Virus record (IMG/VR): IMGVR_UViG_3300037070_002093
Span: 1 to 25,549 of that record
Length of the DNA stretch: 25,549 nt
Direction: 5' to 3' (one strand)
Source of the DNA: a virus
A program made the position numbers and the translations under genes. The notes beneath the pieces are model-generated. The model made no database searches. It had not been told where the DNA came from and saw only the letters and a program-made list of their open reading frames with translations. Position 1 is the first letter of the stretch. Each line of letters begins with the position of its first letter. This document shows, piece after piece, positions 7,242-25,549 of this stretch.

Positions 7242-7253
7242 AGTAATTACTTA

Positions 7254-9314: not shown

Positions 9315-9324
9315 AATGAAACTC

Positions 9325-9789: not shown

Positions 9790-9804
9790 GATTATAGCAT
9801 TTAA

Positions 9805-12881: not shown

Positions 12882-12889
12882 TTAATAAC

Positions 12890-13507
12890 CTATTGTCTTG
12901 TCATCTTGCGACGGCCGAAGATTTGGATTGGCACCACTGGGGCTGCCACGCCGTTGTCTAAGACCACTGCGGGGACTATCCATGTGGCTGAAACCACGCC
13001 AGCAGCCAGAGTCACCGCACCCGGTGTTAAGGTTGCGGCTGGAACCACCCAAGAAGCGCTTAGGGCGGCTGCTGCAAGGGTTACTTCAGCACTTAATACT
13101 GAGGCCCCTACTTGCCATGCGGCGCTTACAGCGCCCGCTGTGATGGTCTGGTCGCCCCCGTCAGCGCTTAACGCGGCTGTTGGGACGTTCCATGCGGCAC
13201 TTACGACGCCTGCTGCTAGGGTGACTTGTCCCGGTGTTAATACAGCGCTGGGCACAACCCACGTTGCTACCGCTGAGGCAGGCGTTAGGGTGACTGGCGT
13301 TGTTAGGGTTACGCTAGGCACTACCCATGACGCGCTAACGACACCAGCAGCGAGCGTTACTGGTGTAGCTAATGTCGGTGCTGGGACAACCCACAGCGCA
13401 CTTACAACCCCGGCCGAGAAGTTGATATCTCCCCCGCCGCCACCTTCTGCGGGCGGGATAGCCATCGAGTTGATGTTCGGGTCGGTGTTAAGTCTAATAA
13501 AACTCAT
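12890..13507 (-). CDS. seven-repeat beta-rich virion protein (205 aa)
   Basis: After a short N-terminus and a poly-Gly linker (~22-26) the protein consists of seven tandem ~22-residue units. Each has the pattern VTLAAGVVSAsWxVPxxxL, with the tryptophans at residues 39, 61, 83, 106, 131, 153 and 176. The C-terminus is a short basic tail (GRRKMTRQ). Hydrophobic alternation with one Trp per unit suggests a beta-solenoid or strand-addition repeat, well suited to an elongated surface appendage. The start is coupled to the upstream stop by TAATG. No enzymatic motif. Unit number could vary by slippage. Virion role is inferred from position among tail and decoration genes. Confidence 0.72.
   Translation of the reverse strand: MSFIRLNTDPNINSMAIPPAEGGGGGDINFSAGVVSALWVVPAPTLATPVTLAAGVVSASWVVPSVTLTTPVTLTPASAVATWVVPSAVLTPGQVTLAAGVVSAAWNVPTAALSADGGDQTITAGAVSAAWQVGASVLSAEVTLAAAALSASWVVPAATLTPGAVTLAAGVVSATWIVPAVVLDNGVAAPVVPIQIFGRRKMTRQ
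12962..13423 (-). repeat. seven imperfect ~66-bp tandem coding repeats
   Basis: The DNA under the repeat protein is itself repetitive, with recurrent words such as GTTACGGT-, GGCGTTAAG- and CCACG-type segments at 66-75 bp spacing. The protein repeats are better conserved than the DNA, so the units are old and held by selection at protein level. Confidence 0.6.
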
Positions 13508-14256
13508 TAGCGTGCGAGACCCGGCTTAAAAGGACCGGGACGAAGCTTGCCGAGGTTAGGAATGTTGGAGCATAGAAACGGTGTTGGCTCCATTGGGATT
13601 TCCACCAAGAACGCTCCCCAACCTGACACACCAGCACTAAGCGTTAATGTCCCTGTGATGGTGCCTGTTGAACCTGCGTTGACGTTCTCGCGATAGGCGA
13701 GAGTGCTGGCACAGAACAACACGGAATCACCGCTGTCGGCAGTGGCGTCCTCGGCCTCGGTGTAAGACCCTGGAGGCGCGAAACTCATGGCTCCAGCGCC
13801 CGCAGTTGCGTCCGGGTCGCCCATGCCGACGAACACGATGTCGCTTCCCTGCGCCGCGGTCAGGCCGGTCGCGTTGACCGATACAGGTGATGCGTTGCTT
13901 GAGTTGTTAGTAGCCGTAGTAAGTGTTGGTGCTGTAGTTGTGCTGCGGCCACTAAGTAACATGCACTGCAACAACCAATCGGCGGAAGAGATACCGATGT
14001 CCGTATAGGCATATGAACCAGCATCGGCGGCGCTGAGGCGCTTCCACGCGACCTGAAACCGCTGACCGTCAGGTGTGGCAACCGACGTGTCCACCAATTC
14101 CGTGAAACCAGACGGCAGGTCCGCCGTGGGGTCTGTGGCTGCGCTGTCCAAAGACAACACCAATATCGCGATGTCGTTGATAGCTGCCCCGGAAGGAACT
14201 GCTACAGTCGGCAAGGTGTCTTGTCCGCCGTTCGTGGTCGAGTCTCGGTATGCCAT
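13507..14256 (-). CDS. beta-rich virion protein (249 aa)
   Basis: Thr/Ser/Ala/Gly-rich protein with a jelly-roll-like pattern of strands (AAINDIAILVLSLDSA, GSDIVFVGMGDPDA, GSTGTITGTLTLSAGVSGW) and no signal peptide. I know this general pattern from phage structural proteins of unknown role, often near fibre genes. The C-terminus ends in a basic PGPFKPGLAR tail that resembles the tails of neighbouring proteins. TAATG overlap with the upstream gene. Probably a decoration or appendage protein; an adhesin with a carbohydrate-binding fold is an alternative. Confidence 0.62.
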   Translation of the reverse strand: MAYRDSTTNGGQDTLPTVAVPSGAAINDIAILVLSLDSAATDPTADLPSGFTELVDTSVATPDGQRFQVAWKRLSAADAGSYAYTDIGISSADWLLQCMLLSGRSTTTAPTLTTATNNSSNASPVSVNATGLTAAQGSDIVFVGMGDPDATAGAGAMSFAPPGSYTEAEDATADSGDSVLFCASTLAYRENVNAGSTGTITGTLTLSAGVSGWGAFLVEIPMEPTPFLCSNIPNLGKLRPGPFKPGLAR

Positions 14257-14963
14257 TAGCGTAAGAGGGCCGGATTAACGCTCATGCCTCTACAGTGTGC
14301 CTGCTGATAGTTGACCAACTTAAGTGCGTCAAGGTCATATGTTAGGTCAAACCACGCATTAAGGTCAGTCGTCACAGCCGCCGTGAACAAATGGTCACTA
14401 GCGCCGCTGTTGCCAATAGAAAGCGTATATGAACCTGCTGCTGTTGGGGCGTTAGCGCGTGTGCCAACTTCCAGCACTAACCTGAACGCTTTATTAAGTG
14501 CTAAGGCTGTTAGGGCTGTTCCTGCGCCTGCTGTTGGCAGAATGCGTGTGGCTCTGCTAGCTGTTAGGGGATACTCAGTAGACGTGGCAAAGTTGCTCGC
14601 CAGCGTGCCAAAAGATGTCCCACCGTCTGGACTAACTGCTTTAAGTAGGTATGCCAAGTGCGCGTTATTAGTCGTCGCGTTCTCAGCACAACGAATAACC
14701 ATACGAAATAGGCAATCCGTTCCAAACCTAACAGGATGAAATACCTCGTTTGACGTGAACTGGTAGCAGAGAATATCTTGAGTAGTTGTAATGGGAATTG
14801 TAATAGCGCCTGAGACCGTCTGCGCTGTTAGGGCGCTATGGCGTCCAGCAAGTTCCATTGGCAATCTCGTCGCCGCTCCCGTTTGTTCCCACGCGGCGTC
14901 AAAGCCAGGGTTCGTAGGGGCCGCAATAGCCCCTGTTGAGAGGAAGTGGAACTTCGTGGCCAT
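14256..14963 (-). CDS. beta-rich virion protein (235 aa)
   Basis: The sequence alternates short hydrophobic strands with Thr/Ala/Gly turns, including an early FHFLSTGA strand and a late FDLTYDLDALKLVNY strand. The pattern is like concanavalin/jelly-roll domains used in phage appendages. The C-terminus is the short basic tail NPALLR, similar to that of the next protein. Start coupled to the upstream stop (TAATG). No motif that allows a specific function. Confidence 0.6.
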   Translation of the reverse strand: MATKFHFLSTGAIAAPTNPGFDAAWEQTGAATRLPMELAGRHSALTAQTVSGAITIPITTTQDILCYQFTSNEVFHPVRFGTDCLFRMVIRCAENATTNNAHLAYLLKAVSPDGGTSFGTLASNFATSTEYPLTASRATRILPTAGAGTALTALALNKAFRLVLEVGTRANAPTAAGSYTLSIGNSGASDHLFTAAVTTDLNAWFDLTYDLDALKLVNYQQAHCRGMSVNPALLR

Positions 14964-15496
14964 TAGTTTACCGCTTCAAGCACATATGCCATACCAGTAA
15001 TAGTGTTAGATGCGCTCGCCGCTGACCAGTCTGCTGTGACACTCAGGTCTTTGGCAGTTGTTAGGTCAACTGTGACTGCCGCTGGGGCGTCGAAACCGCT
15101 CACTGAGAAAGTCTGTGAAGTCTGCGTGCTGGCTGTTAGGTTTACCACCACATCACCAAACACGATAATAGTGCCCGTTGCACCGTTTGTGCGGGTCTGG
15201 ATGATAGCTTCAATAGACCAGTTTGTATTCGCCGCACCGGACGCGCATGTGATGGCTTCGGTCGTGGCAAGCAAGTCACCGCCAACCCCACCCCAGCGAA
15301 TAGCAAAGGTAATAGTCGGTGTGCCTGTTGTGCTCAGCTTACCAAAACAGCGCAAACGCAGCACGCGCCCGTCCTGCATGAAGTTCGCAGGCAGAGTGAC
15401 GTTAGGGAAGATGATTGTTTCTGTAGTCGAGTTGGCGTGAGCAGTAGCATCGCTAGTTGCCCATACCATCGGTTCTACGAATCTTTGAACTGACAT
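14963..15496 (-). CDS. beta-sandwich-like virion protein (177 aa)
   Basis: An all-beta protein of Thr/Val/Ala-rich strands (ETIIFPNVTLPANF, RLRCFGKLSTTG, NTITGMAYVLEAVN), compatible with an Ig-like or jelly-roll sandwich. The segment GDLLATTEAI...W and the alternating pattern are typical of phage structural proteins I have seen annotated only as hypothetical. Its stop overlaps the next start (TAATG). Function beyond virion component not known. Confidence 0.6.
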   Translation of the reverse strand: MSVQRFVEPMVWATSDATAHANSTTETIIFPNVTLPANFMQDGRVLRLRCFGKLSTTGTPTITFAIRWGGVGGDLLATTEAITCASGAANTNWSIEAIIQTRTNGATGTIIVFGDVVVNLTASTQTSQTFSVSGFDAPAAVTVDLTTAKDLSVTADWSAASASNTITGMAYVLEAVN

Positions 15497-15504
15497 CGAT
15501 ATCC

Positions 15505-15921
15505 TTACTGTTGTAGATAGAACGCGCCTGTTGTATCGAATGTTAGGTTAATGTTACCGCCGTTAGTAGGGGTATCAGTTACGTCGATACATGCGATAGG
15601 GGTGCTACCAGCGTCGTTAGTGACGAATTTAAACACAACCACATAGCCGACTGTGCTTCCCCCGACTACCGCTGTCCATGAAGGGTCAGCAGCGTCGTAG
15701 ACAATCCTGTCGTTTGTTGTGTCTTCAGTGAATGTCTTTGACCCCAACGTCTGGTCTGTGCCAATGGCTGTGTAGCCAGTCATTGACGTGTCGTCTTTGT
15801 TAGGCGTCACGGAGCTAGCGACAAGGCGAGCTTGAATGGTGTCCGCTGACCAATCAATCTGGGTTCCACCAGTTTCTACGCTAAGGTCGCGTGCGCCTCT
15901 GTTATAAACAAAACTAGCCAT
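15505..15921 (-). CDS. small virion structural protein (138 aa)
   Basis: The pattern VYNRGARDLS...IDWSADTIQARLV.S..TPNKDD..M...TAIGT, followed by NDRIVYDAADPSWTAV and VVVFKFV, matches a widespread family of small phage structural proteins of unknown precise role, often located near tail or fibre genes. All-beta, no signal peptide, no cysteine-rich motif. It lies 3 nt from the coiled-coil protein gene upstream. Assignment as a virion protein is good; exact role unknown. Confidence 0.65.
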   Translation of the reverse strand: MASFVYNRGARDLSVETGGTQIDWSADTIQARLVASSVTPNKDDTSMTGYTAIGTDQTLGSKTFTEDTTNDRIVYDAADPSWTAVVGGSTVGYVVVFKFVTNDAGSTPIACIDVTDTPTNGGNINLTFDTTGAFYLQQ

Positions 15922-15924
15922 CTA

Positions 15925-16473
15925 TTAAACCTCGTCCAACTTCTCGCGCGCTACTTCGAAGGCTGCGATACGTGCTAGGGCTTTGCTTAATAGCTCAGAC
16001 TTAACATTTATCTCGCGCTGTAGGTTGTCGCGTTCAACACTTACAACCTTTACAGCCTGCTGGGCTGCGGCGTTTTCGACGTTGGCTATCCTTGTGGCTT
16101 CTTCCAGGTCGTTAACTTCAACCTCTTTGTTCGCTGCGTATTCGCCTGCGTCCTTCAAAGCATCAATAGCTGACTCAAGCTGAATCTTTAGCGCCTGCTT
16201 CATGGCTGACTCTTTGTCTAGCTCACGCGTTAGATTGTCAAGGTCATTTACAGCCACCTTTAGGCGGTCCTCGGCGCGTTCTGTTCTGTAGGCTCTGCAC
16301 GCCACACAGCCGTCAGCACCGTATTTACCTCCGTTATTGCACTCCCCAATAGCCTTGTTAATAATCTTCTTAACAACGTCCGCTACGGGGTCCGGGTCGC
16401 CGGGGAACACTGGCTGTTTTAGAGCCTCTGTGAGCACCTTAGCTGCGTCTACTGCCCATTCTTGTGTAGTCAT
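15925..16473 (-). CDS. coiled-coil protein (182 aa)
   Basis: Residues 1-45 form a short domain. A CxxC motif follows (GCVACRAYRTERAED, about 55-70), and from ~66 to the end there is one long charged heptad-repeat helix (DLDNLTRELDKESAMKQ, DLEEATRIANVENAA, ALARIAAFEV). With an additional Cys near 45 a metal or disulphide site is possible. Such rods often act as trimeric stalks or scaffolding factors. It is flanked by beta-rich virion proteins and coupled by TAATG to the gene upstream. Family not recognised. Confidence 0.62.
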   Translation of the reverse strand: MTTQEWAVDAAKVLTEALKQPVFPGDPDPVADVVKKIINKAIGECNNGGKYGADGCVACRAYRTERAEDRLKVAVNDLDNLTRELDKESAMKQALKIQLESAIDALKDAGEYAANKEVEVNDLEEATRIANVENAAAQQAVKVVSVERDNLQREINVKSELLSKALARIAAFEVAREKLDEV

Positions 16474-16814
16474 TAGCGAATCTCGTAGGTAACGTCGTAG
16501 TCGATTGTGGCAGCCGCACCGCCTGATGTTGTAATCACCAGCGCGTTGCCTGTTGTAAGCTTATTACCTGGGTAATCCCTACGAACAGTTGAATAGTTCA
16601 AGTTAAGGATAGCGTCGGCTGTGACTGTGGCCATACGCGCGAGTGCAGCACCGGCTGCGGCGTCTGTGACCACTACGCGGCTTGTTGTGCCTGCTACGCT
16701 GACTGTGATAGTCAGGTAAATAACGTAAATAGCCTCATTCGCGGCTGGCGTATCAACAGTTACGTTGCCGTTCGCTGCTGTCGAGCCGCGCTTTGTATAA
16801 ATTCCCTTAGCCAT
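16473..16814 (-). CDS. small beta-rich virion protein (113 aa)
   Basis: A compact all-beta protein (AIYVIYLTITVSVAGTTSRVVV, NALVITTSGGAAATIDYDVTYEIR). The final strand pattern is common in small phage head-fibre or decoration proteins. AGGATT lies at a suitable distance before ATG 16814. It follows the head-tail adaptor gene directly, so it could bind at the head-tail junction or on the capsid. Function inferred. Confidence 0.6.
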   Translation of the reverse strand: MAKGIYTKRGSTAANGNVTVDTPAANEAIYVIYLTITVSVAGTTSRVVVTDAAAGAALARMATVTADAILNLNYSTVRRDYPGNKLTTGNALVITTSGGAAATIDYDVTYEIR

Positions 16815-16823
16815 TCATAAATC

Positions 16824-17489
16824 CTATGTGTCGTGAGTGTAGCGGTATTGGAAGCCCTTGCCCTGCTCCCTGCGGAAGCGTTCATACGCTTTCAATACTG
16901 GTGCGAAGGTTTCTTTTGCAAACTCCATCAGGTCGCCCTGAGGGTCATCTAGCCCTAACGCGATAAGCTTTACCGCGAACGTAGCAACAGGGAGTCTGGC
17001 GATATCTTTATATGCGAATGTCCCGCTCGCTGTAATATTCGAGGCTGATGCGAAGCCATACCAGCGTAGATTATAGACATCGTTAGGAACAGGGCTGAAA
17101 TAAATGTTAGTTCCATCGGTCCAGTAGCTCTGAGGGCGACCTGTTGACGCTGTGTCAGGGGAAGGCCAGTAGTTGCTATTGGCATGTCCCCCGACGTTAT
17201 AGAGAGGCGTTAGGTCGTAGGTTGGGCGGGACGTGATAGGGTCGAGGAACTGTATCTTATCGAGACGTAGAAGGGTGCTAGGAAAGGCCACAGTCTCCGT
17301 AGAGGCCACTGTAGCGATGCTCCCCACCCCTGAGCCCATCACACCAGGAATCTGCGCTAGAAGCGACTCTAGGTGGTCCTGTGCAACGTTCAGCGCGATA
17401 AGGCCCTTGACAACCCCGGTTTCACCAGCCTGAAGCTGTAGCTCGGGGTCAAGAATTTCCATTGTATCTAGTAAATCTTGGCCCGTCAT
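16824..17489 (-). CDS. head-tail adaptor/connector protein (221 aa)
   Basis: The N-terminal helices (GQDLLDTMEIL, GLIALNVAQDHLESLLAQIPG) are followed by a beta segment with ATVASTETVAFPSTLLRLDKI. A second segment, RPQSYWTDGTNIYFSPVPN and YNLRWYGFAS, follows, and a basic helical C-terminus ends in RYRYTHDT-like residues. This architecture is that of the phage adaptor proteins that bind under the portal and connect it to the tail (T7 gp11-/P22 gp4-like in role). Length is typical. GAGG lies 7 nt before the ATG. Position downstream of capsid genes and before tail genes agrees. Role assigned with fair confidence from pattern and context. Confidence 0.72.
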   Translation of the reverse strand: MTGQDLLDTMEILDPELQLQAGETGVVKGLIALNVAQDHLESLLAQIPGVMGSGVGSIATVASTETVAFPSTLLRLDKIQFLDPITSRPTYDLTPLYNVGGHANSNYWPSPDTASTGRPQSYWTDGTNIYFSPVPNDVYNLRWYGFASASNITASGTFAYKDIARLPVATFAVKLIALGLDDPQGDLMEFAKETFAPVLKAYERFRREQGKGFQYRYTHDT

Positions 17490-17502
17490 TTACTACCTCT
17501 AA

Positions 17503-18081
17503 CTAGCTGTGGTGTTTTGAAAACTTGCTGCCTGTAGATTTGCCGCGCATGCTGACTTGGATACGCGTGTGGTCCCACTGCTCAGACGCCATGTCCCTAA
17601 CATCCTGACGACGGTGGTTTACGCGGTCTGCGTATTCTTTATCTTGCTCGGCTTCGATGTTGGCCCAGTAGGCTGCCATGCTGTGGTATTTACGTCCGCA
17701 TCGGTCCCACGAGCGTGCGAGGGTGCGAGCGTCTAGAGGCATATAAGACTCATCATCCCCATACTGAACGACTAGAATCAACTTCCAGCCCTTCATACGG
17801 GGATGCTTAATCTCGTTAGGCATGTGTGCCCAGACAACCCAACGTTGGTTGACCGGATGCCAGATAACTTCGAAACGGGGGTCTATTTCTTTGATTTTTG
17901 CCCTGAAATCTTCAGGTGCGAACTTAATACCGAAGCTAGCTGGCGTGAAATGGTGCCAGCTTTGCTCCGGTTTAGACTCCCCGCGTCGGTAGGGTATGGG
18001 GTCGATAGGAATCTGACGCCCATAGTTTAGTTTACCGCCGTTAATTAACTTCTCTGTCCCCGGCTCCGAATATAGTTCCAT
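17503..18081 (-). CDS. hypothetical late protein (192 aa)
   Basis: A polar protein, rich in Trp, His and Arg, with a central alpha/beta part (FEVIWHPVNQRWVVWAH, WKLILVVQYGDDE). Its helical C-terminus (YWANIEAEQDKEYADRV) ends in a Lys/His/Ser tail. No known motif. The start at 18081 lies 41 nt inside the end of the upstream gene, with only a weak ribosome site. It belongs to the head operon between the capsid gene group and the adaptor, so a head-completion or assembly function is possible. Not recognised. Confidence 0.62.
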   Translation of the reverse strand: MELYSEPGTEKLINGGKLNYGRQIPIDPIPYRRGESKPEQSWHHFTPASFGIKFAPEDFRAKIKEIDPRFEVIWHPVNQRWVVWAHMPNEIKHPRMKGWKLILVVQYGDDESYMPLDARTLARSWDRCGRKYHSMAAYWANIEAEQDKEYADRVNHRRQDVRDMASEQWDHTRIQVSMRGKSTGSKFSKHHS

Positions 18082-18733
18082 ATGCTACTCTGTGGTCGTC
18101 TGGATTCTTACGGTCGGACTTCATGTGCTTAGCCATCTGCGCTTTCGCAATGTTAAGCTTTGAATGGTCGTCTTTGTTGAAGTTCACTGTGTATTGACAC
18201 ACAGGGCAAGCCATCTTGCCGTTGTCCATGTCAATTACGAGGTCAGTGTTGACCCGGTGCGCGGCAGCCTTACGACGTGCCCACTCGGGAATATACTTCG
18301 CACCGATACCACCTGATAGCGGAACACCTAATTCCTTACGTGCGCCGTTTTCATCGAAGTAGGTTTTTACCATATGCGCGTCAGACCCTACGCCGTGCAT
18401 ACGTGCTCGGCCGCGTGTGTCCCACTCGTATACGGTAGGCGGATATGGGGCACCCTTACGCTTGTCGCGCTCCCATTCGTGAATTGAGTCTACATACGTA
18501 ACGATTGAACTCTTCAAAGCCTCTACACCAATCCACGCTTCCCCTTCGTGCTTTTCAAGCTCGATAAGCTCGAATACACGCTGAAGCACTGGTCGGACAG
18601 CCTTCGGGTTGACGTTAACTGGTGTGCCCTTGTTGAGCGCCACGTTAGGACTCTCTCCAAGATGCTCGGCCATGAACAAGTTTTCTTCTATCGAATATAG
18701 CGCCGGTTCGAAACGGGTAATTGTGCCCTTCAT
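18041..18733 (-). CDS. Cys/His zinc-finger-like late protein (230 aa)
   Basis: A mostly helical N-terminal half (VRPVLQRVFELIELEKHEG) is followed by a polar region. Near the C-terminus there is a finger-like motif, C176-P-V-C179, followed by H203 and H214 on a helix and loop (AQMAKHMKSDRKNPDDH). This fits a treble-clef or C2H2-type zinc site. AAGGA precedes the ATG by 5 nt. Such a protein in the head operon, between a decoration-like protein and the adaptor, is unusual; it might bind DNA or act as an assembly factor. I do not recognise a named family. Confidence 0.66.
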   Translation of the reverse strand: MKGTITRFEPALYSIEENLFMAEHLGESPNVALNKGTPVNVNPKAVRPVLQRVFELIELEKHEGEAWIGVEALKSSIVTYVDSIHEWERDKRKGAPYPPTVYEWDTRGRARMHGVGSDAHMVKTYFDENGARKELGVPLSGGIGAKYIPEWARRKAAAHRVNTDLVIDMDNGKMACPVCQYTVNFNKDDHSKLNIAKAQMAKHMKSDRKNPDDHRVAYGTIFGAGDREVN

Positions 18734-18746
18734 ATGTCCTTATCTA

Positions 18747-19169
18747 TTAGAAGTTCTGGCGTGTGCGACGTAGACGCACTGTGCAGCTTACGCCTAGGAG
18801 ACCTGTTAGAGTTCCAGCGTAGACCGCCGCAAGTGAGTCACCAGGGATAAGAGACAAACGCGATAGGGTTGCGTGCAGCCCTCCTGCGTTACGTGTCTTT
18901 GTCTGTGATGTGTCGGCACCTGTGTTAAGAGCGAACGCCGCTGCTAACGTGCTAACACCTGAACCGGGTGTGGTTCCTGTCGCGCACTTTACAACGTCAA
19001 TTGTGGCACCTGAGCCACCGTTTACGTCGTGGTTTACTGTGACTGCTTCTACTTCATAGTAGCCGTCAGACACAAATAAATACTGTGATAACTGTAGGCC
19101 CGCTGCCGCTGGTAGGGGTCCACCTACGTAAACAGGAGCGTCCAAAGATGACTTGCTGTAGTAGCCCAT
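18747..19169 (-). CDS. head decoration-like protein (140 aa)
   Basis: A small all-beta protein directly downstream of the major capsid gene, the usual place of head decoration or stabilisation proteins. Strands such as YYEVEAVTVNHDV, ATIDVVKCATG and LGVSCTVRLRRTRQNF alternate with Gly/Ala/Thr loops. There is no signal or catalytic motif. It is separated from the capsid gene by a strong intrinsic terminator, so its level depends on read-through. GAGG lies 11 nt before the ATG, a slightly long spacing. Role inferred from position and fold-like pattern. Confidence 0.62.
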   Translation of the reverse strand: MGYYSKSSLDAPVYVGGPLPAAAGLQLSQYLFVSDGYYEVEAVTVNHDVNGGSGATIDVVKCATGTTPGSGVSTLAAAFALNTGADTSQTKTRNAGGLHATLSRLSLIPGDSLAAVYAGTLTGLLGVSCTVRLRRTRQNF

Positions 19170-19185
19170 AATTTTTATGCCTCTT

Positions 19186-19221
19186 AAAAGAAAAGGGTAG
19201 ATAGGTTCCCCTACCTACCCT
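19186..19221 (-). terminator. intrinsic terminator after the major capsid gene
   Basis: On the minus strand an 11-bp stem (arms 19210-19220 and 19195-19205, one G-U pair) closes a GGAA tetraloop and is followed by TTTTCTTTT (19186-19194). It starts 20 nt after the capsid stop codon. Stem, tetraloop and U-tract are all textbook. It would end most transcripts started in the scaffold leader while letting some continue into the tail genes. Confidence 0.9.
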
Positions 19222-19240
19222 AATTCAATCCGCTTAAGCA

Positions 19241-20542
19241 TTACGCTTCAGCAATGTCCTCCACCTTACATCCGGCGGCTGGGTTGTCAGTAATCAACTG
19301 ACCCTGCCAATACCAGCGAACGTCATAGGCTGTGTTAGCTGTGTTAGTGAAGAACGGAACGTTGAACAGCTTGCTTACAGGCTGAGGCATTTCGTTTTCA
19401 CCGTGGCCGACGAAGAAGTGGCTCTTGTCGAACCCTACTACTGTATTGGCTTCGAAGAATGGGTCAAAGTGCCATGCGACTCCTGAGAATTCGTATGGGC
19501 TCTTACCGTCTTCTCCATTGACTCCACCGTTCTGTCGTCCGTAGCCACCGCTTACAGGCCCCGGCTTACCAACTGATGTAATCGTGTCGGCACGTAGCAA
19601 CTCGTGGTAACGGCGTCCGATTGCTCGGTTGCTGAACCAGTTTGTTAGGCGACCGCCACCCTTTTCAATAATAGCGTCTTCGGCCTGTAGAAGTAGGTCT
19701 TCTGTTAGGGCTCGGTTTGTGCCTGAGTTACCAAGCACAACTGACTTCCAGTATTCGTTGCCCGCTGTGTCGCGGTCAATACCACCGGGGTCGTTGACTA
19801 CAGTGCTAATAACGGCGTTGCCTGATGTTCCAGGGCCTACGTCTTCAATTAGCTGTAGGAGACCAAACATGTGCAGCGCCTTTGAGTTCACGCTGATATC
19901 GCTTGTGTCTTCCCAGGTAATGTAGTCGCCAGCAGCAGTTCCAGCACCGTTTGTGCCTAGGGTGACTGTGCGGGCAATTGGGTCCACCGCTGTGATTGTT
20001 CGTGAGTCCAGCAACTTTGTGTCGTCGTCGCTGGCGTCCATGAAGTCAACCACCATGCCTACTTCCGCGCGAGGTAGGAAACGGCTTGAGATAGGGTCTG
20101 TGTTGTCTGCCGCGCTAAGGATGGCAAGCTCGCCTCGGCCGTAGCCTAGGAAGTCTGCGTTAATTAGACGGAAGATACGACGCTGCACGCCTTCGTCCAT
20201 CATCTGGACGGCCTGCTGGAACGCGAACTTTGAGTTACGCGCGTCCTGAATTAGCTTGAACGATACTGAGTATGTTCCAGCGAATTCCTGCAAGCTCCAT
20301 GTGGCTTCGGCCGTGTCTGGGTCAAGTGCTGTAGGGAAGGCTCCACCCTGTGTAGTTCCCTTCCAAGCGCCGGGGTTCTTCACCATGATAGGCATGATGA
20401 ACTGGCCACGACCGCCTAGGGGTGCCTTACGCTTACTTAGAACGTTCCAAAGAGGAACTTCTGTGTTAAAGAGGTAAAGAATACGCTTATCGTCGTGATA
20501 GGTATACTTTAACGCTTCCAATACGTCTGTTGTTGATGCCAT
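19241..20542 (-). CDS. major capsid protein (433 aa)
   Basis: The gene follows the scaffold gene and precedes a strong terminator, and has the size and composition of an HK97-fold capsid protein of podovirus type. The N-terminal arm is helical (DVLEALKYTYHDDKRILYLF). Next comes the segment PLWNVLSKRKAPLGGRGQFIMPI, then GTYSVSFKLIQDARNSKFAFQQAVQMM, a pattern shared by capsid proteins in which a long spine helix follows the E-loop. A middle beta domain (TITAVDPIARTVTLG) and a C-terminal region with DVRWYWQGQLI follow. No protease gene is seen beside it and the N-terminus shows no obvious delta domain, so scaffold is probably the separate upstream protein. Very abundant product expected, in line with its own promoter and terminator. 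Confidence 0.85.
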   Translation of the reverse strand: MASTTDVLEALKYTYHDDKRILYLFNTEVPLWNVLSKRKAPLGGRGQFIMPIMVKNPGAWKGTTQGGAFPTALDPDTAEATWSLQEFAGTYSVSFKLIQDARNSKFAFQQAVQMMDEGVQRRIFRLINADFLGYGRGELAILSAADNTDPISSRFLPRAEVGMVVDFMDASDDDTKLLDSRTITAVDPIARTVTLGTNGAGTAAGDYITWEDTSDISVNSKALHMFGLLQLIEDVGPGTSGNAVISTVVNDPGGIDRDTAGNEYWKSVVLGNSGTNRALTEDLLLQAEDAIIEKGGGRLTNWFSNRAIGRRYHELLRADTITSVGKPGPVSGGYGRQNGGVNGEDGKSPYEFSGVAWHFDPFFEANTVVGFDKSHFFVGHGENEMPQPVSKLFNVPFFTNTANTAYDVRWYWQGQLITDNPAAGCKVEDIAEA

Positions 20543-20579
20543 TGAAAAACAAGTCCTAATTGTTCAAAGTGTGGGACTC

Positions 20580-21497
20580 TTAGTCAGGGATGCCAAACGC
20601 GGCAGCCATTGAGTCGGCAACCTGTGCGGGAGACTTGAAGCCTTCGTTAAGCTTGCCACCGGGGACCGCGTTTCCGCCTCCACCAGCAATCAAGCGCTTA
20701 CGGGCCTTCTCCGCTGCCTGCTTGTCCATCGCGCGAAACATATTACGGAGCTTATCAAGCTTCGTCTTTGCTGCGGAATCAAACTGTGAATCCCAATCCT
20801 CACCATCGTGAGATGAGTAAAGGTCTTCCAGGTATTCCATCGCCGCTGGGTCGTCAGGTAGCTCTAGAGACTGTCTTGTAGTTCCTAGACGCTGCTTTAG
20901 GGCGCTCATGCCAGACGTCTGTTGCATCTGCTGAATAACGCCGCTTAGCTTCTGTAGCTCACCGTGAAGTTGGGTAATTACCTTATCGCGTTCGCCAATC
21001 GCTGCTACGATAGGCTGAATCCCGCGCTGTTGAATGGCTTCTAGGATGCTAGCAGCGGTTTTACCGTTGATATAATCCTGTCCGCGCAATTCTGCGAGTG
21101 GGTCTTGCTGTTGCTGTCCCCCACCTGCGTTTCTAGCTTCGGCCATCTTACGGGCCTCACCTAGCAACTTCTCTGTGGCTGCTGCCTTCTCGGCTTCCCA
21201 AGCTTTCACCGCTTCCGCGTGCGCTTGGGTTTTCTTCGTGAATTCTGACTGCGGGATATAACCACGCTGATAGTCAGCCCACTTGACGGGGTTAGCCTGC
21301 CCCGGAACCCTAACCATTGAGTCGGGTGTTAGGTCGAAGATTGAGCCTCCACCGGCCCCACCTTGCCCACCACCTTGGGGTGCCTGCTGCTGTTGCTGCT
21401 GGCCCCCGCCCTGCTGCCCGCCTTGGGGTGCGCCACCTTGAGCGCCGCCACCTTCAAGCTGATAGAAGGGTAGAGAAATACGTGTAAAACGGAACAT
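20580..21497 (-). CDS. scaffold protein (305 aa)
   Basis: The N-terminal ~55 residues include a Gln/Gly-rich low-complexity stretch (GGQQGGGQQQQQQAPQGGG). Next comes a motif VPGQANPVKWADYQRGYIPQSEFTKKTQ, the 'GYi.qs.fTkKTQ' element common in phage scaffolds. The body is a long charged helix region (AVKAWEAEKAAATEKL, ...) and a C-terminal helix with KSPAQVADSMAAAFGI, likely the capsid-binding part. It is located directly upstream of the major capsid gene, as usual. It is the first gene after the leader/promoter at 21500-21680. AAAGG precedes the ATG by ~10 nt. Acts inside the procapsid during assembly and then leaves. Confidence 0.82.
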   Translation of the reverse strand: MFRFTRISLPFYQLEGGGAQGGAPQGGQQGGGQQQQQQAPQGGGQGGAGGGSIFDLTPDSMVRVPGQANPVKWADYQRGYIPQSEFTKKTQAHAEAVKAWEAEKAAATEKLLGEARKMAEARNAGGGQQQQDPLAELRGQDYINGKTAASILEAIQQRGIQPIVAAIGERDKVITQLHGELQKLSGVIQQMQQTSGMSALKQRLGTTRQSLELPDDPAAMEYLEDLYSSHDGEDWDSQFDSAAKTKLDKLRNMFRAMDKQAAEKARKRLIAGGGGNAVPGGKLNEGFKSPAQVADSMAAAFGIPD

Positions 21498-21538
21498 TTA
21501 GTTATTGCCTTTCGGTCGAGTGATTTCGGAGGGCTAAC

Positions 21539-21568
21539 AACAGGTTATTGACGGGCGTCAGTCCTGTT
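21539..21568 (-). promoter_or_regulatory. two-tier stem-loop in the scaffold/capsid mRNA leader
   Basis: AACAGG (21539-21544) pairs with CCTGTT (21563-21568), and inside it TGACG pairs with CGTCA around two bases. It lies ~40-70 nt upstream of the scaffold ATG in the untranslated leader. No U-tract follows on either strand, so it is more likely an mRNA stability or translation-control element than a terminator. A second small hairpin, TTCGC/GCGAA, lies further upstream at about 21590-21605. Confidence 0.5.
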
Positions 21569-21622
21569 TGCTTATTCTTAGGTCGGGTTCGCCTGAGAGC
21601 GAAACTGAATTAAAGGATAGGC

Positions 21623-21643
21623 GCAATAAATATTACTTATTGC
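21623..21643. promoter_or_regulatory. inverted repeat at the predicted transcription start
   Basis: GCAATAA (21623-21629) and TTATTGC (21637-21643) are perfect 7-bp inverted repeats around 7 nt. The palindrome sits exactly where transcription from the adjacent promoter should begin. It could be an operator for a phage regulator or give the mRNA a protective 5' hairpin. No regulator gene is visible in the window. Confidence 0.5.
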
Positions 21644-21649
21644 AATTTG

Positions 21650-21679
21650 ATATTAGCACGCTTTTGATTAGCGTGTCAA
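21650..21679 (-). promoter_or_regulatory. sigma70-like promoter for the scaffold-capsid unit
   Basis: Minus strand: TTGACA (-35, plus positions 21674-21679, 6 of 6), an 18-nt spacer, then TAATAT (-10, 21650-21655, 4 of 6). The predicted start is near 21643. The -35 overlaps the last codons of the 71-aa gene. It is the best promoter in the window and lies in the only sizeable gap of the head operon (21498-21667), upstream of the most strongly needed proteins. Confidence 0.65.
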
Positions 21680-21883
21680 TTCCGCTAGGATACCTTCTGT
21701 CTTAAGACGTTGATATAGTTTGATATCGCGGTCGGTTATTTTGCCCTGAAGCCTCTTTAGGTCGTCTATTGACTCTTGGATGACTTCAACCCTAGCGGCG
21801 GTTGTGGCTTCAAGGCGAACGATGTCTTCTTCGTAACGGGTAATACGGTCTTGGATAAGGGATTCAACCCCTGCTGCGTCCAT
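21668..21883 (-). CDS. small coiled-coil protein between portal and scaffold (71 aa)
   Basis: A short, highly charged helical protein (YEEDIVRLEATTAARVEVIQ, DLKRLQGKITDRDIKLYQRL) with clear heptad spacing and no Cys. The ATG overlaps the portal stop as TAATG, so the two are translationally coupled. Small coiled-coil proteins at this place may help portal or scaffold assembly. No family recognised. The last codons overlap the -35 of the following promoter. Confidence 0.65.
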   Translation of the reverse strand: MDAAGVESLIQDRITRYEEDIVRLEATTAARVEVIQESIDDLKRLQGKITDRDIKLYQRLKTEGILAELTR

Positions 21884-24135
21884 TACAATACCTGCTCATC
21901 TGTAATGCCCTGCTTTAGTAAGTCTTCAAACTGGGGCTGTGTTTTGACTTGCTCTAGAAGCTGCCCCATAACCGCGTCTACGGTCGCTGAGGCGGCTTGT
22001 GCGCTGCTCTGCTGCACGGCTTGAGCTACGGCACCCTGCACCATCTGGGACTGCATAAACGCCTGCTGCTGCTGTGCTTTCTGTTGCATGAACGCTGAGT
22101 GCTGCTGCCAGCGCTGTTGGAACGCCTGCTGGACCTGTGGGGTCGCTGTTAGGTGTTCCATTGTGGCCATTGCTGCCTCTAGTTCGTCCATCATGGCTGC
22201 ATGGTCCCAGAACGGCATAACCGGGGGCACGTATTCGCCCTTTGTTAGGCGCTCGTTGATTTCGTTCTGTAGCTTACGATATTGGGCGGCGCGCGATATG
22301 CGGCCGGTATCACCCACCTTCGCATCCATCGCTAGCTTTGATTTATCAAGCTGGCCAGTGCGTTCGTCCATGTAAAGGATGCCTAGGGGCGACTGGAGAC
22401 GTTCGATAATTGCACCCTCACGCACAGCGCGTAGCTCTGGGATGAAACTACCGCGTTCTATTCTGATGCTGTAGTTCGTCCCTGACTTTAGAACCTTATT
22501 GTTATAGAACTCTAGAACCTCATCCTGCATGTTCGCATCGGTGTAGTTCATCGTGCGAATTGGAGGGTAGAAGTCCTTAACTCTATTCAACCTCATCTGC
22601 TTAGCCGCGGCGAATTGTTCTCCCAAGTGCTCATAGAGATTATTCCACTCGGAATCCATAATCTCCTGAAGCATGGGAATAGCCATAGGCCCGCGCATCT
22701 GGCCGGGGAACTTTGACTGCTGGAACAAGTCAGCCCCGCCCGCTAGGTCGTTCAAGAGGTTCATGACTAGCTCAATACTCTTGATAAACCAACCCGGCAT
22801 TGCTGGGCCAGCGAGACGGTGCACCAAAGGCACACCCTGTTCATTTACGCTGTTTTCAATGGCTTCTGGGCTGTCGGGCGTAATGTCGGTGCGCTTAATT
22901 CCAGGGCCTAACAAAACCTTACCGTGGATGTTCGCGTTGGCTTCTTCGCCCATCTGGCTTAGGCGCTTGTTAAGGAACTTCTGGGGTGCCATCAGGTCAG
23001 TTACGTAGTCCTTCGTCCAGAAGGTTGTAGTCACTGGCTCTAGGTGGTAGTCCACTACGGGAACCTCTCCGTAAGGGTTCTCACCGTCGCGGAGAATCAT
23101 TTTAGATGGGATAAAGATAGTGTAGCGGCCCTTAGGGTATTTCTTCCCGGCTGGCTGGTAGCGATGCACCACGACGAACATATCTGGGTCGTCGTCCTCT
23201 GTGCTTCCCTGAAGCGCGGGAATCATGTCCTGCAAATCAAGCGCACCATGCGAAGGGCCTAGCTGGGTGAATTCAGTCGTGACAATCTTGATGTGTTCGT
23301 CCCCGCCCACTTCCTCAATCTTCATTAAGACTTCTTGGTTAGGCGAACCATCGACGTTGTAGCCGAAGTTTTCAACAACCCAACCCTTGGTTTTAAGCTC
23401 GGCAATGTAGATGCCTTGGTCAGGTGCTAGGTCAGCAACACTACGCACCCCGGCGTCAAGGAACACGTTTAGCGGGCCGTATACAGTAGACTGCACGTCA
23501 CCCACAACCTGTAGGTCTTCTATTACCTCAAAGTATTCCTTCGGCGCTCCCTGTTCAATGAGCATTTCAACTTCGCTCTCACTGAACTCCTGACCCGGCT
23601 GCTGACTGAAGCTGAACAACACTTCGTTCTGTTCGTTAAGCTTCGGCATGGCCTCCTGAGTGACGTTAGGCATCCAGGTTGTTACTTCGAACGCAACCCC
23701 GCCGTAGACGAGCCAGAAGAGAATTTCCCATGTGCGGCTAGGCTGCTTGACCTTGGCATCCAGGGCGCTGATAAGCCTATCAACTACTTCGGCATTGGCC
23801 CACGAAGCTACGTCCTGTTTGTCAGGGTTCGCCTTAAACTTACCGTTCAAGGCGGCTGTGGAAATGCGGCCCATGAACTTCTTCGCGCGCTGCGCCAGCA
23901 AGTTGAAGACTAAATACAGCTTATTGTCTTCGTTCTCGCGGACTGTTAGGTTTCGCGGCCCTTCGCTTAAGTGGTGCTCACCAAAGAAAAAAGCGAGTGC
24001 TCTTAACACCCGCAGTTCTACTGAGAGCCCCGACTTGCGAGACTTCTGATTTTGTAAGCGCTGATAATCCTTGGTAAGTTCGTCTAGAACTCCGTCAGGA
24101 CTTTGAAGCTGCTCGTCCGTGTATTCGTATGGCAT
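21883..24135 (-). CDS. portal protein (750 aa)
   Basis: By size, position before the scaffold and capsid genes, and pattern this is the podovirus portal. Its N-terminal helical part includes KLYLVFNLLAQRAKKFMGRI and ILFWLVYGGVAFEV. A wing/stem region contains VFLDAGVRSVADLAP and the segment GRYTIFIPSKMILRDGENPYG. A helical C-terminus is rich in Gln and Ala (QQAFQQRWQQHSAFMQQK), resembling the barrel or tail of large podoviral portals. Portals form a 12-mer ring at one vertex, through which DNA is packed and released, and bind the terminase. The start lies only 13 nt after the CCA end of tRNA-Thr and has no Shine-Dalgarno sequence. No terminase gene is in the window; it should lie to the right. 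Confidence 0.85.
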   Translation of the reverse strand: MPYEYTDEQLQSPDGVLDELTKDYQRLQNQKSRKSGLSVELRVLRALAFFFGEHHLSEGPRNLTVRENEDNKLYLVFNLLAQRAKKFMGRISTAALNGKFKANPDKQDVASWANAEVVDRLISALDAKVKQPSRTWEILFWLVYGGVAFEVTTWMPNVTQEAMPKLNEQNEVLFSFSQQPGQEFSESEVEMLIEQGAPKEYFEVIEDLQVVGDVQSTVYGPLNVFLDAGVRSVADLAPDQGIYIAELKTKGWVVENFGYNVDGSPNQEVLMKIEEVGGDEHIKIVTTEFTQLGPSHGALDLQDMIPALQGSTEDDDPDMFVVVHRYQPAGKKYPKGRYTIFIPSKMILRDGENPYGEVPVVDYHLEPVTTTFWTKDYVTDLMAPQKFLNKRLSQMGEEANANIHGKVLLGPGIKRTDITPDSPEAIENSVNEQGVPLVHRLAGPAMPGWFIKSIELVMNLLNDLAGGADLFQQSKFPGQMRGPMAIPMLQEIMDSEWNNLYEHLGEQFAAAKQMRLNRVKDFYPPIRTMNYTDANMQDEVLEFYNNKVLKSGTNYSIRIERGSFIPELRAVREGAIIERLQSPLGILYMDERTGQLDKSKLAMDAKVGDTGRISRAAQYRKLQNEINERLTKGEYVPPVMPFWDHAAMMDELEAAMATMEHLTATPQVQQAFQQRWQQHSAFMQQKAQQQQAFMQSQMVQGAVAQAVQQSSAQAASATVDAVMGQLLEQVKTQPQFEDLLKQGITDEQVL

Positions 24136-24148
24136 TTAGTATGAGAAA

Positions 24149-24222
24149 TGGAGCCGGTGGAAGGAATTTAACCCTCATCACAGCCTTACAAGGGGTGCAT
24201 TCTAACGTTGAACTACACCGGC
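24149..24222 (-). tRNA. tRNA-Thr(UGU)
   Basis: 74 nt including encoded CCA. Acceptor GCCGGTG/CACCGGC is perfect, anticodon loop CTTGTAA gives UGU, T-stem GAGGG/CCTTC. The anticodon stem has one C-C mismatch (29-41), and the T-loop is TTAAATT, lacking the usual C56. Reads ACA (and ACG by wobble). Last tRNA of the cluster, 13 nt before the portal gene. Confidence 0.88.
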
Positions 24223-24227
24223 ATTTT

Positions 24228-24302
24228 TGGAGCGCCCTGCGGAACTCGAATCCGCTTCGCATGGTTTGGAAGACCAGCAGTTACCACATACACCAAGGGA
24301 GC
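24228..24302 (-). tRNA. tRNA-Gly(UCC), degenerate
   Basis: 75 nt with CCA and discriminator U. Acceptor GCTCCCT/AGGGCGC has a T-C mismatch at 3-70; D-stem poorly paired; anticodon stem four pairs around loop CTTCCAA, giving UCC. T-arm GCGGA TTCGAGT TCCGC is normal. A shifted reading with anticodon CCA (Trp) is possible but pairs worse. Likely still a tRNA, perhaps weakly functional. Confidence 0.72.
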
Positions 24303-24338
24303 TTTGATGCGTAGCTTAGTGTCCTATTCTACGCTAGA

Positions 24339-24415
24339 TGGCCCGAACCGCTGGATTCGAACCAGCCTACTCCCCGTCTTCAGCGGGGCGCTTGAACCTG
24401 CTCAGCTACATTCGG
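24339..24415 (-). tRNA. tRNA-Phe(GAA)
   Basis: 77 nt with CCA. Anticodon stem CCCCG/CGGGG is perfect, loop CTGAAGA gives GAA (G at 37 instead of A). T-arm GCTGG TTCGAAT CCAGC is normal. Acceptor CCGAATG/GGTTCGG has a G-G at 7-66. Discriminator G, where bacterial tRNA-Phe usually has A. The 24303-24338 spacer carries a 6-bp inverted repeat (GCGTAG/CTACGC). Confidence 0.85.
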
Positions 24416-24420
24416 ATTTC

Positions 24421-24512
24421 TGGTGGGAAGGGCAGGATTTGAACCTGCGGTGTTTACCCTTTGGGTATCCGGGTTACAGCCGGACTGCTTCAGCCTCTCG
24501 CAACACCCGCCC
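24421..24512 (-). tRNA. tRNA-Tyr(GUA), long variable arm
   Basis: 92 nt with CCA and discriminator A. Loop CTGTAAC gives GUA; anticodon stem TCCGG/CCGGA is perfect. A long variable arm (TACCC/GGGTA) marks the bacterial class II tRNA-Tyr. T-arm GCAGG TTCAAAT CCTGC. Acceptor GGGCGGG/CCTTCCC has a C-T mismatch and a G-U. Confidence 0.92.
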
Positions 24513-24517
24513 ACAAT

Positions 24518-24579
24518 GAGGCACCCATGATTAATGACCTTTGGGTTTTACCGGCCGGAACGGTCATGCGGCTGGCCTC
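24518..24579 (-). ncRNA. structured spacer in the tRNA cluster
   Basis: The gap between tRNA-Leu and tRNA-Tyr (24513-24584) is spanned by GAGGC/GCCTC arms (24518-24522 and 24575-24579) enclosing ATGACC/GGTCAT (24534-24539 and 24562-24567). No tRNA T-arm or CCA is found. It may be a decayed tRNA, a small RNA or a processing signal. Low confidence. Confidence 0.3.
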
Positions 24580-24584
24580 TAAAT

Positions 24585-24672
24585 TGGTCCCCAAGAAAGG
24601 ATTTGAACCTTCACGAGTTATTAGCTCACTGGTTTCTAAGACCAGCGCGGCTGCCAGTTACGCCACTCGGGG
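24585..24672 (-). tRNA. tRNA-Leu(UAG)
   Basis: 88 nt with CCA. Class II with long variable arm; D-arm GCG...CGC typical of bacterial tRNA-Leu; anticodon stem CTGGT/ACCAG with loop CTTAGAA gives UAG; acceptor CCCCGAG/CTTGGGG; T-loop TTCAAAT. Reads CUA (and CUG/others by wobble). CUA codons are frequent in the genes of this window, so it likely supports late translation. Confidence 0.94.
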
Positions 24673-24673
24673 A

Positions 24674-24749
24674 TGGGTTGATTGGTGGAACTTGCATCCA
24701 CTTCAGGCACCTTCACAGGGTGCTGGTAAGCTACTTCACCGTCAACCAA
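24674..24749 (-). tRNA. tRNA-His(GUG), atypical
   Basis: 76 nt with CCA. Anticodon stem GCACC/GGTGC perfect, loop CTGTGAA gives GUG. Acceptor TTGGTTG/CAATCAA pairs fully (one G-U), with C73. The base before position 1 is U, so the G-1 that pairs with C73 in bacterial tRNA-His is missing. Position 8 is A and the T-loop is TGCAAGT. Only 1 nt separates it from tRNA-Leu. Confidence 0.82.
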
Positions 24750-24752
24750 ACT

Positions 24753-24827
24753 TTAGGGCCGTCTGTTATATAAATCCATGAAATACGCTACAGACAACCC
24801 TATTAAAATAGCTAACACTACAAACAT
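24753..24827 (-). CDS. possible 24-aa membrane micro-protein inside the tRNA cluster
   Basis: The 79-nt gap between tRNA-Ala and tRNA-His is almost filled by one frame: ATG at 24827-24825, two bases after the CCA of tRNA-Ala, to TAA at 24753-24755. It encodes a hydrophobic segment (MFVVLAILIGLSVAYFM) and a polar, arginine-containing tail (DLYNRRP), a plausible single transmembrane span. There is no ribosome site, since the upstream sequence is the tRNA itself, so translation would need a leaderless start after tRNA processing. May be chance. Confidence 0.35.
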   Translation of the reverse strand: MFVVLAILIGLSVAYFMDLYNRRP

Positions 24828-24828
24828 A

Positions 24829-24903
24829 TGGTGGACTCTAAGGGAATTGAACCCTTACATTCTGGTTGCAAGCCAGACATGCTCCCGTTATCATCAAGAG
24901 CCC
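24829..24903 (-). tRNA. tRNA-Ala(UGC)
   Basis: 75 nt with CCA and A73. Anticodon stem TCTGG/CCAGA, loop CTTGCAA gives UGC. Acceptor GGGCTCT/AGAGTCC contains the G3-U70 pair that is the main identity element for alanyl-tRNA synthetase. T-loop TTCAATT. Reads GCA and neighbours. Confidence 0.94.
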
Positions 24904-24904
24904 G

Positions 24905-24978
24905 TGGAGGACTGTAGTGGAGTTAAACCACCCTGCGAAGGGTTGCAGCCTTCTGTCTAATCGCCTGACTCACAGCCC
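24905..24978 (-). tRNA. tRNA-Cys(GCA)
   Basis: 74 nt with CCA and U73, as in bacterial tRNA-Cys. Anticodon stem GAAGG/CCTTC, loop CTGCAAC gives GCA. Acceptor GGGCTGT/ACAGTCC also has G3-U70, an alanine-type feature. T-loop TTTAACT lacks C56. One nucleotide from tRNA-Ala, with a similar acceptor stem, hinting at divergence from a common copy. Confidence 0.9.
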
Positions 24979-24982
24979 GTAT

Positions 24983-25057
24983 TGGTATTCGCGGTAGGAA
25001 TTGAACCCACCTAGCCGGGTTCGTAGCCCGGTGCATAATCCTATCTGCCACGCGAAT
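24983..25057 (-). tRNA. tRNA-Arg(ACG)
   Basis: 75 nt with CCA and A73. Acceptor ATTCGCG/CGCGAAT and anticodon stem CCGGG/CCCGG are perfect; loop CTACGAA gives ACG, expected to become ICG by the host deaminase and read CGU/CGC/CGA. T-stem GTGGG/CCTAC, T-loop TTCAATT. Confidence 0.94.
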
Positions 25058-25067
25058 GTCTAACTAA

Positions 25068-25154
25068 TGGCGGAAAGAGGGAGATTCGAACTCCCGAAGC
25101 TTTTACACTCAGAATCCTTAGCGGGGACCACCCTCGACCGACCGGACTCTTTCC
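25068..25154 (-). tRNA. tRNA-Ser(GCU), C33 variant
   Basis: 87 nt, class II, with CCA and G73. Acceptor GGAAAGA/TCTTTCC perfect, T-arm GGGAG TTCGAAT CTCCC perfect, long variable arm. Anticodon loop CCGCTAA gives GCU but has C instead of the near-universal U at 33. Reads AGU/AGC. Confidence 0.9.
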
Positions 25155-25168
25155 GTAAACTTACTAAA

Positions 25169-25252
25169 TGGCGGAAGATGCAGGAGTCGAACCCGCTAGG
25201 CTTTTACACCCGGCTGTTTTCAAGACAGTGCCGCACCGTTGCGCTACCTTCC
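25169..25252 (-). tRNA. tRNA-Ser(UGA)
   Basis: 84 nt, class II, with CCA and G73. Acceptor GGAAGGT/ATCTTCC, loop CTTGAAA gives UGA, T-arm GCGGG TTCGACT CCTGC. The anticodon stem has an A-C at 27-43. The variable arm contains TGTAAAAGC, also present in the neighbouring tRNA-Ser(GCU), so the two probably share ancestry. Reads UCA and neighbours. Confidence 0.92.
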
Positions 25253-25300
25253 GTAAAATCAATGGACTGTGGATGTCATTTCACGTTGCGTTAATTCGCA

Positions 25301-25336
25301 TTGTAGCTTATGCCCCTCAAAAGGAGGCGGCTACAA
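25301..25336 (-). ncRNA. stem-loop in the widest tRNA spacer
   Basis: The 117-nt spacer 25253-25369 between tRNA-Ser and tRNA-Gln holds no frame longer than a few codons. It contains a strong hairpin: TTGTAGC (25301-25307) pairs with GCTACAA (25330-25336), enclosing a second stem of CCTC/GAGG type around A-rich bases. No U-tract on either side and no tRNA features. Possible processing signal or small RNA. Confidence 0.4.
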
Positions 25337-25369
25337 GGTCGAACACCCAGGAGTCTAAACTGTTAAGAT

Positions 25370-25443
25370 TGGCCGACGTTAGTGGATTCGAACCACTGCC
25401 AAGAGCTTCAAAGGCTCTTGTGCTGCCATTACACCAAACGCCA
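25370..25443 (-). tRNA. tRNA-Gln(UUG)
   Basis: 74 nt with CCA and G73. Anticodon stem AGAGC/GCTCT, loop CTTTGAA gives UUG. The acceptor begins with U1 opposite G72, a weak first pair as in bacterial tRNA-Gln. T-arm AGTGG TTCGAAT CCACT. First tRNA of the visible cluster in transcription order. Confidence 0.92.
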
Positions 25444-25446
25444 GTA

Positions 25447-25549
25447 TTAACTTAACCGCTTACTAATAGCGATGAGAGCAAAACCTAAGCCAAGGAAAGC
25501 TACACTCGTTAGGATGCCCAAGAAGAACCCGAAATTTTGTGGTGAATAT
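25447..25549 (-). CDS. C-terminus of a small membrane protein (partial)
   Basis: A frame enters from the right edge and ends with TAA at 25447-25449. The 33 visible residues contain a long hydrophobic segment (GFFLGILTSVAFLGLGFALI) followed by a basic tail (SKRLS), that is, one transmembrane span with a cytoplasmic-looking end. The stop lies 3 nt before the 5' end of tRNA-Gln, so the gene abuts the tRNA cluster and may share its transcript. The start is outside the window. Function unknown; small membrane proteins near phage tRNAs are usually uncharacterised. Confidence 0.55.
   Translation of the reverse strand, partial: YSPQNFGFFLGILTSVAFLGLGFALIAISKRLS

Follow-up and report, generated by a model that had tools for sequence, protein, structure and literature searches.

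A conserved structured RNA at the head of a putative scaffold-capsid transcription cassette in a viral structural gene run

The scaffold:capsid proportion in dsDNA phages has mostly been inferred from a few model phages. Among these, P22 has a scaffolding protein that exerts posttranscriptional autoregulation; we know of no RNA operator for this autoregulation in P22, nor, to our knowledge, is any RNA target for scaffold autoregulation known elsewhere. In the class III region of T7, gene 9 (scaffold) and gene 10 (capsid) are preceded by promoters, the T-phi terminator stands directly behind gene 10, and read-through accounts for genes 11 and 12 (PMC5592923). For SPP1, a published account places a gap of ~167 nt with a predicted terminator ahead of scaffold gene 11, and a predicted terminator at 8775-8815 right behind capsid gene 13, which ends at 8777 (PMC6316719). 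We analysed a 25,549-base virus record, which may be a fragment and whose whole length is referred to here as the window. A sequence-only reading had proposed that a promoter with a perfect TTGACA box, a structured leader and a strong intrinsic terminator frame exactly two genes, scaffold and capsid, within this record, an arrangement that could be expected to yield far more scaffold and capsid than portal or tail proteins.

The scaffold-capsid cassette and its flanking signals

The minus strand of the window carries a run of structural genes comprising a portal-position gene, a 71-aa ORF, the scaffold and capsid genes and many small genes. The 750-aa product of the portal-position gene (21883-24135 (-)) is named by position, and sequence searches with it against PHROG, Pfam and the PDB gave zero matches. 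The small ORF (21668-21883 (-)) is followed by a scaffold gene (20580-21497 (-), 305 aa; phrog_3927, E = 2.1e-6) and a major capsid gene (19241-20542 (-), 433 aa; phrog_14242, E = 1.9e-11), for both of which the PHROG matches were weak yet specific. The capsid identity of the 19241-20542 product is supported by a predicted structure of medium confidence (pLDDT 61), with which Foldseek returned 32 PDB matches at E <= 0.001, all titled as capsids or HK97-fold particles and including the HK97-fold capsids of SU10 and Pa223; the region 16824-17489 matched the SU10 adaptor (Pfam). The window capsid shared 50-60% identity with those of 22 relatives, and the window scaffold 23-32% with those of 21. 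Searches of phage records with the window capsid and the portal-position protein gave zero matches, and a clade capsid matched only four such records (24-38% identity). The gaps flanking the gene pair measure 170 nt before scaffold and 71 nt after capsid. Ten predicted tRNA genes lie at 24149-25443 (-), upstream of the portal-position gene.

The promoter proposed by the sequence-only reading is present at 21650-21679 (-), where a -35 box TTGACA (21679-21674) and a -10 box TAATAT (21655-21650) are separated by an 18-nt spacer, and the -10 box is extended by a preceding TG (TGC TAATAT). With 10 of 12 consensus matches, it belongs to the sigma70 type as defined by near-consensus hexamers 16-18 nt apart; its -35 box, at 21679, falls within the 3' end of the 71-aa ORF, and transcription would start near 21643. 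It is the best-scoring of 10 sites in 6000-25549, where chance alone predicts 12.3 at a cut-off of 9/12, and 6 of 200 shuffled copies of the promoter region reached its score. A chance promoter was nevertheless rejected: taken by itself the window site lacks significance, yet a sigma70-like site of at least 9/12 was found within 130 nt upstream of the leader element in 38 of 45 loci, and it is this conservation at the same place in relatives that makes the promoter convincing. These loci (44 besides the window, the leader element being located in each and near-duplicates remaining) were hand-picked from a pool of 80 viral loci with related capsids among the matches listed, together with the window and locus L094; obvious duplicates, incomplete loci and the distant loci L073-L081 were dropped from our hand-picked sets. 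The relatives' promoters mostly read TTGACA-17/18-TATACT and stand 18-59 nt ahead of the leader element, and in 33 of the 38 loci the promoter is the single top plus-strand site of the locus. The same test (at least 9/12, 130 nt) found none in L042, L094, L061, L002, L003, L004 and L010. An inverted repeat, CACGCT...AGCGTG, lies between the -35 and -10 boxes of the window promoter (21679-21650 (-)) and is possibly an operator.

At the other end of the gene pair, a predicted intrinsic terminator begins ~20 nt past the capsid stop (19185-19221 (-)), with a 12-bp stem, a GGAA loop and a U-rich tail (TTTCTTTTA). The stem (19221-19194) consists of 12 perfect pairs (G-U allowed), six of them GC, and the whole of 19221-19185 has the GC-containing stem and immediately following U-tract that define an intrinsic terminator. 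No other site on either strand of the window combines at least 10 bp with at least 6 T of 9, and sites of this strength were expected at 0.04 per shuffled 25.5-kb strand. Promoter and terminator thus frame exactly the scaffold and capsid genes on the minus strand, as had been proposed.

The suggested check, conservation of both elements in relatives, held for the promoter and for the hairpin after the capsid gene, which was strong in most of 36 post-capsid stretches (hand-picked from the pool of 80 plus the window, near-duplicates remaining), and failed for the U-tract. By eye, only ~5 of these 36 loci (the window, L007, L053, L061 and L062) have a U-rich tail after the hairpin, and such a tail is not a family-wide trait; in L009 and L010 the next gene starts at once after capsid, with no gap for a hairpin. 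In the largest clade and L041 the hairpin covaries and has a near-invariant base (CUGAGUAGGUG/GUCACUUCGCCAG) without a U-tract; among 22 sequences (20 distinct), 25 cells were changed on both sides of a pair versus 3.5 in shuffles, of which 0 of 500 were as high. Because the hairpin occurs in most relatives and the U-tract in some, strict termination appears lineage-specific. The proposed interpretation is partly supported: conservation of promoter, leader and hairpin backs the two-gene cassette, and the sequences suggest a shared 3' function of partial termination or 3'-end protection, with strict intrinsic termination as the version of the window lineage. The upper stem of the post-capsid hairpin in L011-L064 (alignment A8) is hypervariable and yet almost always paired, and a GAGCCCCACUCUGGAUCAACGGGGC-like hairpin lies between capsid and the next gene in L001-L004, which are close relatives only.

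A conserved leader RNA ahead of the scaffold gene

The leader, a structured minus-strand stretch of 146 nt, was evaluated over 21650-21498, which folds at -33.6 kcal/mol (z = -3.0), with only 1 of 200 shuffles as low. Its main part is a rod-like RNA of nested helices and three like internal loops (21510-21591 (-)), supported by covariation and a covariance model match. A few nucleotides past the closing helix of the rod lies the Shine-Dalgarno sequence AAAGG (21508-21512 (-)), which is unpaired in the predicted fold. Between the putative start site and the rod is a 5'-terminal hairpin, GCAAUAAGU/AUUUAUUGC (21623-21643 (-)), which is weak on its own because 21 of 200 shuffles folded equally well. 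Hairpins of unrelated sequence, possible 5' stabilisers, also occur between the -10 box and the rod in L007, L008, L009 and L041.

Alignment of 25 leaders of the largest clade, excluding the window, yielded one long nested hairpin in which 93.5% of cells were paired. Cells changed on both sides numbered 89, versus 31.0 in shuffled alignments (0 of 500 as high), and sliding the partners by 1-3 columns lowered pairing to 29-51%. When 30 leaders including the window were aligned, the corresponding counts were 119 and 33.9 (again 0 of 500), in an alignment that was fitted and is thus biased towards structure. We built a covariance model (R1) from the 25-leader alignment, and with filters off it matched the left-out window at 21591-21510 (-) with 31.4 bits (E = 4.4e-6), which ranked first among 11 matches on the two strands, the runner-up scoring 15.3 bits. 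R1 also found the leader in six more held-out loci at E <= 0.02 (L042, L094, L006, L007, L041 and L004), reached E = 2.2 on L002, and gave some antisense matches to the same rods. A second model (R2), built from the 30 leaders including the window, had the leader as its best match in all seven further loci, with E values from 8e-7 (L053) to 0.04 (L010). The leader is a conserved structured RNA in which compensatory changes exceed those in shuffles; the sequence-only reading had noted a structured leader, and our initial candidate of a generic one gave way to a specific conserved element in view of the alignment and held-out searches. Searches of Rfam release 15 (4227 models) returned zero leader matches at the gathering score, and zero at E <= 5 for the window and L001-L004. 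No reading frame is consistently open across the element, and in the window every frame contains stops; a coding leader peptide was rejected because of these stops and because length differences are not in threes.

The three internal loops of the rod are similar and asymmetric, with approximately AYAN (4 nt) on one strand opposite AY on the other. In the window, copy 1 has ACCC as its 5' strand (21585-21588 (-)) opposite AC (21521-21520), copy 2 has AUAA (21572-21575 (-)) opposite CC (21532-21531), and copy 3, which is strand-flipped, has AUAA (21545-21548 (-)) opposite AC (21562-21561). GA/UC pairs mostly border the first two copies, and L007 has ACAA/AC in all three. With a strict descriptor that required every loop, 12 pairs flanking them and the spacings, 28 of the 45 leaders matched, the window's included, versus 7 of 4500 shuffles. 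Among the 28, the first two copies stand 13 nt apart in 25 leaders and 12 or 14 nt apart in the others. In the largest clade the inter-loop strands are equal in length, which would allow a continuous helix of about one turn and so place the loops on one face.

The element is closely tied to the scaffold gene. When all viral contigs were scanned with the RNA-sequence pattern alone, 22 of the 23 places found were directly upstream of scaffold and capsid genes, and the other (L231), without a scaffold link, was taken as chance. The rod 5' end lay 84-129 nt from the scaffold ATG in all 43 leaders measured (84-101 nt in 41, and 106 and 129 nt in the other two), mostly with a Shine-Dalgarno sequence directly after the closing helix. 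Among four loci obtained by searching with the portal-position protein, L082 and L095 gave weak scores (13.8 and 15.3 bits), though their best match sits at the leader, the RNA is hardly recognisable in L087, and RNA search gave no match in L093, which has a related capsid and scaffold with a short gap only. R2 gave no match in the distant capsid group L073-L081, and none at the leader of SU10, podovirus ctLwi270 or Shocker. A second pattern scan, which used a motif repeated in the window-side lineages, returned 120 stretches; R2 was clear in only one of the 80 that were tested with it (L156, another stretch of a contig already in the set), and the remainder were taken as chance, so that occurrence elsewhere was rejected. 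Occurrence in prophages or hosts was likewise rejected, with three weak genome matches at 27% capsid identity and zero R2 matches.

A different element, AGGGCC-(CCYC/GRGG hairpin)-UACGGGCC, stands directly before the Shine-Dalgarno sequence upstream of scaffold in L073, L074 and L078-L081, and is conserved in 6 of 6 aligned loci of that distant group. A similar AGGGCC-type element, with a terminator-like hairpin ahead, occurs in the cultured Microbacterium phage Shocker (L241 2798-2932).

Candidate roles of the leader RNA

We favour, at a probability of roughly 60%, a scaffold-capsid cassette whose conserved leader acts as a protein-bound, cis-acting control element. This best explanation builds on sequence elements and their conservation, covariation and position; from these we infer transcription start and stop, protein binding and a ligand. 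A host-type promoter would make a separate scaffold-capsid mRNA inside the structural gene run, and the hairpin after capsid would stop part of transcription, leaving downstream genes dependent on read-through. The rod-like RNA would lie within the first ~150 nt of this mRNA and end right before the scaffold ribosome-binding site, and a protein would bind the rod via its three repeated loops, about one helical turn apart, altering translation or stability of the message. The loops look like protein binding sites because they are near-invariant, present three times at near-constant spacing, and end before the scaffold start; a conserved RNA with such a module suggests regulation, beyond mere extra mRNA. 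Against this explanation, the RNA is kept in the seven of 45 loci that have no recognised promoter, the U-tract is not conserved, and the post-capsid gap is absent from L009 and L010; the missing, faint or weak RNA of L093, L087, L082 and L095 counts the same way.

Our first choice of candidate ligand would be the scaffold protein, acting in feedback on the message that encodes it, a hypothesis drawn by analogy with autoregulation by the P22 scaffolding protein. The scaffold is, at 23-32% identity, the least conserved partner, while the leader loops hardly vary; given this divergence, fixed loops would be better accounted for by a host protein, and a host factor as ligand would fit both observations as well or better. 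In a more specific version, which we regard as possible if tentative, the rod would serve as a three-site RNA ruler to which free scaffold (or coat) binds cooperatively, shutting scaffold-capsid synthesis off when unassembled scaffold accumulates. Such a three-site operator, if true, would define a new RNA family that is devoted to the stoichiometry of the capsid and occurs in a large group of uncultured dsDNA phages.

The leader might instead be passive, with the rod and the 5' hairpin shielding the 5' end from RNases and keeping the ribosome-binding site open, which would yield a long-lived, well translated capsid mRNA without any ligand. The unpaired Shine-Dalgarno sequence adjoining the rod, the 5' hairpins of variable sequence in the window, L007, L008, L009 and L041, and the resemblance of the stable, U-tract-free 3' hairpin of the largest clade to a 3' protector are all in keeping with such a role. 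A mere stabiliser would not require invariant loop sequences, however, and the recurrence of three similar loops every 12-14 nt in different lineages argues for recognition, so that we consider a passive leader doubtful.

Two further roles were considered. The put RNAs of HK022 modify RNA polymerase, and the nascent rod could do so too, enabling polymerase to pass the post-capsid hairpin or other stops; a conserved RNA near the promoter with a terminator or hairpin two genes on would suit this. The RNA always goes with the scaffold gene and not with the promoter, staying in the loci where no promoter is recognisable, and it is present in L009 and L010, which have no hairpin to pass, making this role unlikely. 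That the leader releases a trans-acting small RNA, for example a nucleator in procapsid assembly, seems to us very improbable: the element is compact, conserved and beside the capsid genes with its own promoter, but its near-constant distance to the scaffold ATG (84-101 nt in 41 of 43) fits a role in cis, and the stretch from rod to ATG showed neither a terminator nor a processing site.

Comparison with known systems

As in P22, control at the mRNA level would set the output of a phage scaffold gene. Shocker resembles the window in its order of portal, small ORF, gap with a structured element, scaffold-position gene, capsid and GC-rich hairpin, and differs, together with L073-L081, in having another leader motif (AGGGCC...GGUAC) that R2 does not match. 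With T7 the window shares promoter(s) dedicated to scaffold and capsid, a sole terminator behind capsid and a probable dependence of downstream genes on read-through, whereas T7 uses its own RNA polymerase and the window site matches the host sigma70-type consensus; here, moreover, a conserved rod RNA would lead the mRNA. With SPP1 it shares a gap before scaffold and a predicted terminator directly behind the capsid gene, while the part of the SPP1 account consulted reports neither promoter nor conserved leader RNA for genes 11-13 (PMC6316719).

A literature search that covered few subscription journals did not find the leader RNA described. As a conserved, recognition-like repeat upstream of scaffold that is absent from Rfam, it offers a concrete RNA to probe, and its covariance model is a tool for locating the RNA in other phages. 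The cassette logic is already known from T7 and SPP1, and cis-acting structured mRNA leaders are known as a kind; the novelty is the RNA at the head of this message. The cassette is thus ordinary in kind, and its uncatalogued leader RNA is the part most worth following.
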